The notes under the pieces were generated by a model. The model saw only the letters and a program-made list of their open reading frames with translations. It did no database searches and had not been told where the DNA came from. Made by a program: the position numbers and the translations under genes. A stretch of DNA of 56,158 nucleotides from Gammaproteobacteria bacterium RBG_16_51_14 (GTDB lineage Bacteria; Pseudomonadota; Gammaproteobacteria; Eutrophobiales; Eutrophobiaceae), in NCBI GenBank assembly GCA_001802375.1, contig MGXK01000137.1, positions 417-56,574 of the forward strand. The letters run 5' to 3'. Of the stretch, positions 6,273 to 50,715 are shown one piece after another. Each line of letters opens with the position of its first letter. Within the stretch, counting starts at the first letter, position 1.

Positions 6273-6668
6273 ATGAGCATGCAAGACCCTATTGCTGATA
6301 TGTTTACGCGCATTCGTAATGCGCATGCACGAATGAAACACCAGGTAACTGTACCATCATCCAAGCTAAAGGTTGCTATTGCAACAATTCTGAAGGAAGA
6401 AGGTTTTATTACTGATTTCAAGCAGGTAGAAGATGGGTGCAAAAAATCACTCGTGATCGAACTCAAATATTTTGAAGGCAAACCTGTGATTGAAAAGCTT
6501 CAGCGTGTAAGTCGCCCGGGTTTACATAAATATAAATCCATGAACACCTTACCAAAGGTTATGGGTGGTTTTGGTACCGCAATTGTATCGACACCAAAAG
6601 GTGTAATGACAGACAAAAGCGCACGCAAACAGGGTATTGGTGGCGAAGTGCTTTGTATAGTCGCTTGA
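6273..6668 (+). CDS. rpsH: 30S ribosomal protein S8
   Basis: Central-domain 16S rRNA binder and, in E. coli, translational repressor of the spc operon at the L5 message. The 131 aa open [18 protein letters not shown] and close with [19 protein letters not shown], both diagnostic. It is 28 bases downstream of rpsN and 13 before rplF. Confidence 0.97.
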
Positions 6669-6681
6669 TGGTTTACAGAAT

Positions 6682-7215
6682 ATGTCTCGAATAGCAAATA
6701 ATCCGGTCGCAATCCCTGCTGGTGTTGAAGTGAACATCAATGGCTGTACCATTACGGTAAAGGGTAATAAAGGCGTATTAAATCATAACCTCCATCCGGC
6801 AATTACCGTAAAGCAGGAAGACAATATGCTGATAACGAGGACAAGTGAGGAATCCAGATCAGCAGAGGCCGTGGCGGGGACAACACGGGCTTTGTTACAG
6901 AATATTGTAACCGGTGTCAGTAAAGGATATGAACGCAGGCTTGAAATCATTGGTGTCGGTTACCGCGCACAGGTGCAGGGTAAGGTTTTAAACCTGACGC
7001 TGGGATTCTCCCATCCGGTTGATTTTTGTATTCCTGATGGGATCACGATAGAAACACCCAGTCAGACAGAAGTTGTAATCAAAGGTATCGACAAACAGCA
7101 AGTCGGGCAGGTCGCTGCAAATATCCGGGCCTATCGGCCACCGGAACCTTACAAGGGTAAAGGTGTACGTTATTCTGATGAACGGGTAATTCGTAAAGAA
7201 GCCAAGAAGGCATAG
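6682..7215 (+). CDS. rplF: 50S ribosomal protein L6
   Basis: Two-domain protein near the sarcin-ricin loop and factor-binding site. The 177 aa open MSRIANNPVAIPAGVEV and close with RAYRPPEPYKGKGVRYSDE, a strong family signature. Gene order S8-L6-L18-S5 matches the standard spc operon. rplR begins six bases later. Confidence 0.97.
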   Translation: MSRIANNPVAIPAGVEVNINGCTITVKGNKGVLNHNLHPAITVKQEDNMLITRTSEESRSAEAVAGTTRALLQNIVTGVSKGYERRLEIIGVGYRAQVQGKVLNLTLGFSHPVDFCIPDGITIETPSQTEVVIKGIDKQQVGQVAANIRAYRPPEPYKGKGVRYSDERVIRKEAKKA

Positions 7216-12695: not shown

Positions 12696-13091
12696 ATGCG
12701 TCATAGAGAGAGTGGTCGAAAACTGAATCGTAACAGTTCACATCGCAAGGCGATGTACAGGAACATGACCGTGTCGCTCATGCAACACGAGATAATCAAG
12801 ACGACCCTGCCCAAGGCGAAGGAATTACGTCGTGTGGCTGAGCCCTTGATTACCATGGCAAAAAACGATTCGGTAGCCAAGCGGCGTCTGGCATATTCAC
12901 GGCTACGTGATCGTGGCATTGTAACAAAGTTATTCAACGAATTGGGTCCACGCTACAAGGAGCGTCCGGGCGGCTATCTGCGAATCCTGAAATGCGGATA
13001 TCGTGCTGGTGACAAGGCCCCGATGGCCATTGTGGAATTGGTAGGCAGACCCGTCAGTATTGAAGGTGATGACAAAAACGCAGAAGTTTAA
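12696..13091 (+). CDS. rplQ: 50S ribosomal protein L17
   Basis: Last gene of the ribosomal block. The 131 aa open [20 protein letters not shown] and contain [20 protein letters not shown] and [20 protein letters not shown] factor-independent terminator follows within 35 bases, which marks the end of the long S10-spc-alpha transcription unit. Confidence 0.97.
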
Positions 13092-13148: not shown

Positions 13149-13155
13149 TTTAAAA

Positions 13156-13397
13156 AAGTCTGAATAATTTCTTGCCCCACCAGGGGGTACCGCGGTCCTG
13201 GAATTTTCAGACCGCGACAAAATCGCCTGGAGCGATTTTGAACAGTGCGCAAGCACTGACCCGAAGGGCGTATACCATGGAGGGTATGCGTAAAAGTAAA
13301 AATGAGATTGGTTTTTCTCACATTATCAATGGCTTGACAGCTATTGAAAATGCCGGAACCTCCCTGTCCAGCGGAAACCATGAATAATCTGAGATTT
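13156..13397. repeat. Two-armed structured repeat, copy A, with four-hairpin cargo
   Basis: Non-coding element of about 242 bp. Its left arm (13156-13217) matches 34414-34475 at 53 of 62 positions, and its right arm (13306-13397) matches 34492-34583 at about 70 of 92. The left arm contains GCGGTC/GACCGC around CTGGAATTTTCA. Between the arms lies an 88-base cargo with four consecutive hairpins: AAAATCG/CGATTTT, GTGC/GCAC, CCC/GGG and TATACC/GGTATG. The ends read inward as weakly similar TCTGAATAAT-like sequences, as in a MITE. A 71-codon frame crossing it (13172-13387) is probably fortuitous. Confidence 0.75.
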
Positions 13398-13513: not shown

Positions 13514-14236
13514 ATGATTATTCTATTTACAGATTATGGGATTGAAGGTCCTTACATCGGTCAGGTACAGGCAGTCTTGCTTCAGCATGCGCCAAAAGAA
13601 AATGTCATCAACTTATTTGCAGATGCCCCGAAACAGAATCCAAAAGCCTGTGCCTATCTGCTTGATGCCTATACGAAAGATTTTCCTCCCGGGACGATCT
13701 TTTTTTGTGTGGTTGACCCTGGTGTAGGGAGTTTCAAAGACAAACCGGTTGTGCTGAGGATCGATAATCGCTGGTTTGTCGGGCCAGATAATGGTCTGTT
13801 TGATATTGTGGCACGTCACAAATCATCCATTGATTGCCTGGAAATTACCTGGTTGCCGGAAAAACTGTCTGCAAGTTTCCATGGTCGCGATCTTTATGCC
13901 CCTGTTTGTGCCATGCTTGCAAATGGTGATGGCGTGCCGGGCACAAGCTTCAAATGGAAGGACAGGAACCACTGGCCGGATGATCTTGCCGAGATAATCT
14001 ATATTGATAATTTTGGAAATTGTATAACCGGCATCCGTGCAGAGATTATAAGTGATGACAAAATCTTAAGGATTGCCAATCAGGAAATACTGTATGCAGA
14101 TACATTCTCTTGTGTACAGGCAGGACACATATTCTGGTATAAAAATTCCAGTGGTCTGATTGAAATCGCAATAAATCAGGGTGATTCAGCAAAGACTTTA
14201 TCACTAGGTGTTGGTGCCCGTATAGAGGTTATATAA
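13514..14236 (+). CDS. S-adenosyl-L-methionine hydrolase (adenosine-forming) family protein
   Basis: Member of the DUF62 / SAM hydroxide adenosyltransferase family, whose characterised members hydrolyse SAM to adenosine and methionine. Visible motifs are FTDYG near residue 6, VVDPGVGS near residue 71, FHGRDLYAP near residue 120 and YIDNFGNCITGI near residue 164. The 240 aa are close to family length. The aspartate and histidine of the described Asp-Arg-His triad are present, but the arginine seven residues after the VDPGVG aspartate is a lysine (DPGVGSFK). The start ATG follows GGGAGAGG. The gene stands alone between the repeat and the next gene. Confidence 0.82.
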   Translation: MIILFTDYGIEGPYIGQVQAVLLQHAPKENVINLFADAPKQNPKACAYLLDAYTKDFPPGTIFFCVVDPGVGSFKDKPVVLRIDNRWFVGPDNGLFDIVARHKSSIDCLEITWLPEKLSASFHGRDLYAPVCAMLANGDGVPGTSFKWKDRNHWPDDLAEIIYIDNFGNCITGIRAEIISDDKILRIANQEILYADTFSCVQAGHIFWYKNSSGLIEIAINQGDSAKTLSLGVGARIEVI

Positions 14237-34337: not shown

Positions 34338-34413
34338 TGAGATGTTACCAATATTATTTATAACTAAAAGCGATAAAAAATCAGTATTTATTCAATTAAT
34401 GAATAATTAAGAA

Positions 34414-34583
34414 AGGTCTGAATAACTCCATACCCCACTAGGGGGTACCGAGTTCCTGGAATTTTCAAACCGCGAATCGCAACAATGCGATGATTGCTTT
34501 GTCTCCCATTTTCAATAGCTTAACAGCTATTGAAAATGGCGGTGTCCCCCTGTACCGCAGAAACCCTGAATTAATCAGGGTTT
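34414..34583. repeat. Two-armed structured repeat, copy B, with single-hairpin cargo
   Basis: Second copy of the element at 13156-13397. Arms of 62 and 92 bases match copy A without gaps, but the 88-base cargo is replaced by exactly 16 bases forming a perfect hairpin ATCGCA-ACAA-TGCGAT (34476-34491). The right arm contains two perfect palindromic stems: ATTTTCAATAGCT with AGCTATTGAAAAT, and AAACCCTGA with TCAGGGTTT. The ends are inverted: CTGAATAACTC at 34418 and, from the other side, CTGATTAATTC. No coding capacity. Confidence 0.75.
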
Positions 34584-50441: not shown

Positions 50442-50532
50442 GGAGAGATGGCCGAGTGGTCGAAGGCGCTCCCCTGCTAAGGGAGTATGGGTTAAAAGCC
50501 CATCGAGGGTTCGAATCCCTCTCTCTCCGCCA
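50442..50532 (+). tRNA. tRNA-Ser (anticodon GCU)
   Basis: 91-base tRNA with encoded CCA. Acceptor stem GGAGAGA pairs with TCTCTCC, discriminator G. The anticodon loop CTGCTAA gives GCU. The long variable arm expected of tRNA-Ser lies around TATGGGTTAAAAGCCCATC. The T-loop is GGTTCGAATCC. It reads AGC/AGU codons. Gene order csrA, tRNA-Ser(GCU), tRNA-Arg(ACG) matches E. coli. Confidence 0.96.
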
Positions 50533-50571: not shown

Positions 50572-50610
50572 GGACTTAGAAATCAGAAATCGAACCCGAG
50601 AAGAGGGTTT

Positions 50611-50697
50611 GACAAATTTGCCGGGAGCAAATTTGAACAGCCGTAGGCTGGCCCGTAAGGGCAAAATACAGGGATGTATTTTGTAATCCCTCTCTCT
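50611..50697. repeat. Four-hairpin module beside a tRNA 3'-end duplication
   Basis: Same order of hairpins as the cargo of the repeat at 13216-13292, with different stem sequences: AAATTTG/CAAATTT around CCGGGAG, then GAACA, CAGCC/GGCTG, CCC/GGG and AAAATAC/GTATTTT, ending GTAA. It is followed by AATCCCTCTCTCT (50685-50697), an exact copy of 13 bases of the tRNA-Ser 3' end (50514-50526). The module therefore lies between the tRNA end and its duplicate. Confidence 0.7.
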
Positions 50698-50715
50698 GCT
50701 ACATGATCAGACTTA

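Follow-up and report, generated by a model that had tools for sequence, protein, structure and literature searches.

Two places in the 56,158-nucleotide stretch of DNA analyzed here (the window), from Gammaproteobacteria bacterium RBG_16_51_14, carry a similar run of hairpins. This raises the question of what the module is, how it came to lie at both places, and whether its fold matters as DNA or as RNA.

Two copies in the window

The module is a gene-less element of about 70-90 nt with four hairpins in a row (HP1 to HP4). A sequence-only reading of the window had proposed such a module at both sites; when we read and folded the sequences, each proved to contain four consecutive hairpins, with exact limits at 13218-13292 (copy 1) and 50613-50685 (copy 2), both on the forward strand. 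Copy 1 consists of HP1 (13218-13240), HP2 (13243-13258), HP3 (13260-13268), and HP4 (13269-13290) and ends in TA; its ends were set by an empty paralogous site, and it matched our covariance model with 70.6 bits. Copy 2 (86.3 bits) consists of HP1 (50613-50635), HP2 (50638-50650), HP3 (50651-50662), and HP4 (50663-50682, AUACAGGGAUGU) and ends in GTA. The fold energies corresponded to z-scores of -5.2 for copy 1 and -4.3 for copy 2 against dinucleotide shuffles, and none of 200 shuffles matched the folding of the real copies. The loops and the GAAC linker are common to both copies, and the stem letters differ. The leading GA and the trailing A around each copy are supplied by the insertion site and not by the element.

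Copy 1 lies in a larger host repeat (13150-13389, forward strand), recognized from its other copies in this genome by blastn and alignment, which it splits into a 5' part (13150-13217) and a 3' part starting at about 13293. Genes for ribosomal protein L17 and SAM hydroxide adenosyltransferase (12696-13088 and 13514-14233) flank this host repeat. An intact tRNA-Ser(GCT) gene (50442-50532, forward strand; ARAGORN and Rfam tRNA) precedes copy 2, and part of its 3' end recurs around the element as a tRNA-Ser remnant that copy 2 interrupts. On the same strand, the T-arm-like 5' flank (GAGGGTTTGA^, 50603-50612; ^ marks the junction) was recognized as part of this remnant by reading it against the tRNA-Ser sequence GAGGGTTCGAATCCCTCTCTCTCC, and the 3' flank (^ATCCCTCTCTCTG, 50686-50698), read directly, is nearly identical to the tRNA-Ser 3' end. 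A csrA coding region (PF02599, E = 1.2e-26), also on the forward strand, runs from 50009 to at least 50200, some 400 bp upstream of the element.

Architecture and covariation of the stems

The element begins with C and follows a constant plan: HP1 with a CNGGA loop, a variable HP2, a short HP3 with a CCC/GGG stem, and HP4 with an A(N)GGAN loop. In 137 of 138 distinct copies, it ends on the right in TA, CA, or TC.

The covariance model was built from 36 diverse copies. In 71 distinct matches to it, 98.1% of the cells pair, two-sided changes occur at all 16 model pairs, and the covariation score was 0.581, where shuffled controls gave 0.167 and slid ones did not exceed 0.117. Since the seed sequences had partly been chosen by pairing in HP1 and HP4, we did a separate test on 106 copies selected by HP1 sequence alone, which removes the seed bias for HP4. 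Three HP4 pairs (2-4) were Watson-Crick in 300 of the 318 cases, while permutation gave 96 +/- 9 with a maximum of 129; pairs 2 and 3 showed all four Watson-Crick types, each in quantity. In 91 of 104 copies, HP1 was followed by an HP4-like hairpin (GGA loop, stem of 4 bp or more), and the controls gave 4/104 downstream and 0/104 after shuffling. The earlier claim that the stems covary therefore holds far above chance, both in the 71 matches and in the independent HP4 test, and this strong covariation supports the selection on a folded strand that had been deduced from the two copies. G-T pairs and A-C mismatches are about equally rare (6 vs. 5 in HP1 and 8 vs. 8 in HP4); such a scarcity is uncommon in the stem of a functional RNA, and it slightly favours, and does not prove, a DNA stem over an RNA stem. 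The sequence-only reading could not name a family for the module; likewise, no Rfam 15 family, TwoAYGGAY (RF01731) included, matched at the gathering score or at E values up to 5.

Empty and filled sites

Both units in the window are mobile insertions with exact ends, a point absent from the earlier reading. The window itself has an empty site: a paralogous host repeat without the element (34407-34576, forward strand; blastn pieces 34407-34475 and 34492-34576, and alignment) shares its flanks with the host repeat of copy 1, and its junction after 34475 is ACCGCGA^ATCGCAAC, which reads ACCGCGA^ATCG. Other copies of the host repeat in this genome carry the element, and two of them have a second element nested in the HP1 loop of the first; nesting in HP1 is seen at locus L298.

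The same comparison can be made in Escherichia coli. At queA-acpH, 807 genomes matched, of which 133 had an ERIC sequence with the element and about 674 had the ERIC sequence alone; in the one pair compared, the length difference was 77 bp and the left break was GTGA^. The copies of E. coli, Salmonella, Pectobacterium, and Serratia found inside ERIC sequences at GTGA^ or GAGYGA^ fold well. In Serratia, an ERIC may contain as many as two elements, the sites being GAATGA^ATCCCG and GGGTGA^, and the insertion GAATGA^..^ATCCCG retains both flanks. Further hosts were found in Salmonella, in Pectobacterium, and in a Proteus gene that reads as rhs from its sequence.

No target duplication was seen in the comparisons of empty and filled sites, and the element ends have no terminal inverted repeats. 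Immediately 3' of the element an A is usual, also at sites whose empty relative has G, and one or two additional bases stand at the right junction of some ERIC copies; this junction may thus be less than fully precise or carry one extra step. Element copies stand head-to-tail in three loci (L328, 480-850; L333; L334), and the L328 set overlaps the 3' end of a reading frame. A separate MITE-like repeat with ends TAGAACCTATCTCAAAATT.. that recurs in the genome also hosts copies of the element (L003, about 1392-1602; L008, 6845-6990; L293, 1430-1725).

Target preference and tRNA genes

The left flank ended in A in 137 of 138 distinct copies and in GA in 98. The element inserts as a unit 3' of (T/C)GA, and its preferred target is GTTCGA^ATC in the tRNA T-loop (target string, GTTCGAATC). 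Of 222 distinct sites, GTTYRA^ stands at 51 and GTTCGA^ATC at 33, and rejoining the flanks restored complete tRNA genes at six. Copies also occur in tRNA-Ser D-loops and in an anticodon loop, the latter in three partial tRNA-Ser(CGA) copies beside an intact gene. An intact tRNA gene is often found near a tRNA-borne copy. Besides tRNA genes, the insertion hosts are ERIC sequences, rhs, and the element's own hairpins, and outside tRNA genes GA is the sole strongly fixed part of the target. That tRNA loops and other repeats house much of the family is a further point absent from the sequence-only reading. A rule by which all sites would be hairpin loops found no support in folding, as the share in hairpin loops was 0.27 for rejoined non-tRNA targets and 0.22 for other GA sites within the same flanks.

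Several arrangements around tRNA-borne copies recur. A tandem of three tRNA-Gln(TTG) genes (L008, G000:C81:30000-42000, 6325-6730) consists of a broken gene, one with the element in its T-loop, and an intact one. A short GATGAGAACC-type motif, which pairs with GGTTC, precedes the T-loop copies in eight loci (L053, L057, L061, L091, L115, L124, L146, and L331); it resembles a mutated inverted T-arm and stands before many T-loop copies. In L033, L037, L015, and L020, the tRNA genes and terminators are followed by an inverted T-arm piece and then by a repeated tRNA 3' end with the element, an arrangement that brings to mind the rtT repeats of E. coli tyrT.

Distribution

The sequence-only reading had regarded a failure to find further copies as telling against the module; blastn gave 7 matches in its own genome and the covariance model gave 33. 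Among 58 genomes of relatives, a first search found the element in 21 and the covariance model in 37, with up to 44 matches each, and a pattern search of species genomes returned at least 120 stretches. The matches listed include Serratia, Pectobacterium, Atlantibacter, Rheinheimera, Alishewanella, Methylomonas, Methylobacter, Halomonas, Salinicola, Microbulbifer, Thiohalophilus, and other genera. In a Pseudomonadota sample, 83 of 398 genomes had matches, with per-genome copy counts that are lower bounds; 44 of these 83 are listed as sharing the phylum but not the class. The query sequence itself was present in 1 of 5426 E. coli genomes, and the ERIC-borne copy in 133. Copy number spans 0-141 between genomes, the highest value being the covariance-model matches of one Serratia marcescens genome. 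The family thus spans many Gammaproteobacteria and some relatives beyond the class. Two Proteus mirabilis records of about 4.1 Mb (NZ_OL790812.1 and NZ_OL790811.1) are filed as plasmids and are chromosome-like.

How the element may move

We are highly confident that the element is mobile: its copies are dispersed, in places tandem or nested, their ends are constant, their stems covary, and the sites occur both empty and filled. The lack of a gene, of terminal inverted repeats, and of target duplication makes a MITE of the DDE type unlikely. As a whole explanation, we favour a non-autonomous mobile DNA element that moves as a single strand through an enzyme acting in trans, and we see the case for it as evenly balanced. 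The element would move through folded single-stranded DNA, and the trans-acting enzyme would recognize the hairpins and the GA target and would cut and rejoin the strand, much as HUH/Y1 enzymes do for IS200/IS605 and REP elements. A single-strand, HUH-like step in the movement is plausible, and we place it slightly short of an even balance.

The strand on which the copies lie points to a single-strand route. In a tally of four genomes with a located origin, which assumes a terminus opposite dnaA, orientation was biased 28 vs. 13 towards the lagging-strand template (p = 0.03); the orientation of tRNA genes could cause the same bias.

No autonomous, gene-bearing version turned up among 31 HP1 matches that had no strict HP4 nearby; the majority of these matches are complete copies whose HP4 is mismatched. 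A resident Y1 transposase was rejected as the partner. The rank correlation between element copies and Y1 genes is weak (0.28-0.36), and there are clear exceptions: four genomes at least 90% complete (G005, G026, G032, and G047) gave no Y1_Tnp match and hold 34, 11, 9, and 6 element copies, where past loss of the enzyme is possible. Y1 genes of subclass 2.1/2.3, suggested as parents by their host range, were also discarded, as the flanks examined carry GGGGTCAGGTC-type repeats and not the element. There is no space 5' of HP1 for an IS608-type guide sequence, and no guide stretch was identified. Some Y1 genes of the TIRYT type start just behind a small hairpin that looks like HP4 (L184, minus strand, 1444; L169, 1446; L174, minus strand, 1437); its loop contains GGAG, likely the ribosome site of these genes.

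The insertions in T-, D-, and anticodon loops of tRNA and the copies in the element's own hairpin loops would also suit movement via an RNA copy, in which reverse splicing or ligation into RNA loops would be followed by reverse transcription. However, the GA target sequence alone also explains the tRNA-loop insertions, the rejoined non-tRNA targets have no clear excess of hairpin loops (0.27 vs. 0.22), and the copies are nearly all full length, without 5' truncation; we consider this route very improbable. Strong covariation and a wide distribution are what a vertically inherited, non-mobile structured RNA gene or cis-regulator would give as well. We give this reading almost no credence: it is contradicted by empty and filled sites in one window and in E. 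coli, by copy numbers that range from 0 to 141 between genomes, and by nesting and tandems.

A CsrA-like hairpin

The main rival to the single-strand explanation takes the element as a mobile or dispersed RNA that binds CsrA/RsmA. The copies would be transcribed, and HP4, perhaps also HP1, would bind CsrA, so that the element might serve as a decoy, act in cis on transcripts nearby, or rely on CsrA to protect its own RNA. The loop of HP4 corresponds to the ANGGAN hexaloop of RsmE/CsrA. Of the 106 copies selected by HP1, 101 had A(N)GGA in an HP4 loop closed by C-G, with a truly variable N, in a search that permitted A or G as the first base. The CsrA SELEX consensus is RUACARGGAUGU (PMC7652899), and HP4 of copy 2 fits it at 12 of 12 positions. 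The pair of GGA hairpins in each element would suit the CsrA dimer, and similar loops in TwoAYGGAY were predicted to bind CsrA by independent work on RNA motifs (PMC4333381).

The csrA gene was present in every genome with at least five copies and at least 90% completeness, but it is near-universal here and its presence is therefore uninformative. It lies just upstream of copy 2 (50009, before tRNA-Ser) and similarly in several other genomes; since tRNA-Ser is among the targets, synteny of csrA and tRNA-Ser(GCT) can account for this neighbourhood. Against the CsrA reading, the HP1 loop has C and not A ahead of NGGA, the HP4 stems, at 7-8 bp, are stronger than those of typical SELEX ligands (4 bp or less), and G-T pairs are scarce in the stems. 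Sense orientation relative to co-directional genes was not biased (28 vs. 22, from crude ORF calls), and a cis-regulatory RNA with an orientation bias was rejected on the same count. We think it unlikely that CsrA binding is the main explanation, and we keep it as a live rival or as a possible side effect of a mobile DNA element. Both could be joined in a very widespread, gene-less four-hairpin class that would be spread single-stranded by an enzyme distinct from the IS200/REP transposases known so far, would home to tRNA loops, and would rewire or titrate the CsrA regulon through a CsrA-binding hairpin, a combination that we regard as improbable.

Comparison with known repeats

Like IS200/IS605-derived MITEs and their HUH/Y1 systems, the element has hairpins at both ends on one strand (HP1 and HP4), no inverted repeats or target duplication, a 5' target that is fixed in part (GA), and head-to-tail joints. 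Unlike them, its HP1 begins at the first base with no guide stretch ahead of it, no parent IS was found for it, and some of its hosts lack Y1_Tnp. MITEs of DDE transposases have terminal inverted repeats and target duplication, and the element has neither. REP/REPIN sequences are also short palindromes in high copy number, with conserved short motifs and mostly extragenic. They are defined by a 5' GTAG/GTRG tetranucleotide at the foot and by a RAYT neighbour (PMC6006769), whereas our element has four different hairpins without such a foot, and it flanked no RAYT gene in the Y1 neighbourhoods examined.

AYGGAY-like hairpin loops in small dispersed repeats are also found in YPAL/RU-2 of Yersinia (PMC2759123 for RU-2) and in TwoAYGGAY, but the architecture of the element differs, and RF01731 did not match it even at E values up to 5. 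In Rheinheimera, a repeat that resembles these appears to host the element. CsrA decoys of the CsrB/RsmZ type share the ANGGA hairpin loops; in contrast, the element is dispersed and mobile and showed no promoter-terminator sRNA unit.

The closest precedent comes from two 1997 papers, Mol Microbiol 24:1314-1315 (Sharp) and 24:1311-1314 (Cromie, Collins and Leach), whose ERIC insertions were reportedly about 70 bp in size. Both are listed for insertions within ERIC sequences in the references of PMC3696847. These insertions are very probably the same element as the enterobacterial copies found here, which are well-folded inserts of about 70-80 bp inside ERIC, including the 77-bp difference of E. 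coli. The enterobacterial copies were thus apparently noted in 1997 as ERIC insertions of gut bacteria, without an explanation, a point absent from the sequence-only reading. Those papers appear to concern enterobacterial ERIC, whereas the element described here is independent of ERIC, has both ends defined, occurs across Gammaproteobacteria and beyond, and is often in tRNA loops. Its core strings were absent from 5.39 million searchable papers, a body that omits most subscription journals; as far as that literature reaches, the broader family appears undescribed, as do its ends, its liking for tRNA genes, and its CsrA-like loop.

These results turn a near-forgotten curiosity of ERIC insertions into one sharply defined mobile family, which reaches dozens of gammaproteobacterial genera and beyond the class, with up to about 140 copies per genome. 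Genome annotation pipelines will encounter the element within tRNA genes. Its well-defined ends, target, and empty sites make the question of transposition testable, and the hairpin that fits the CsrA consensus makes a possible regulatory side effect directly testable.
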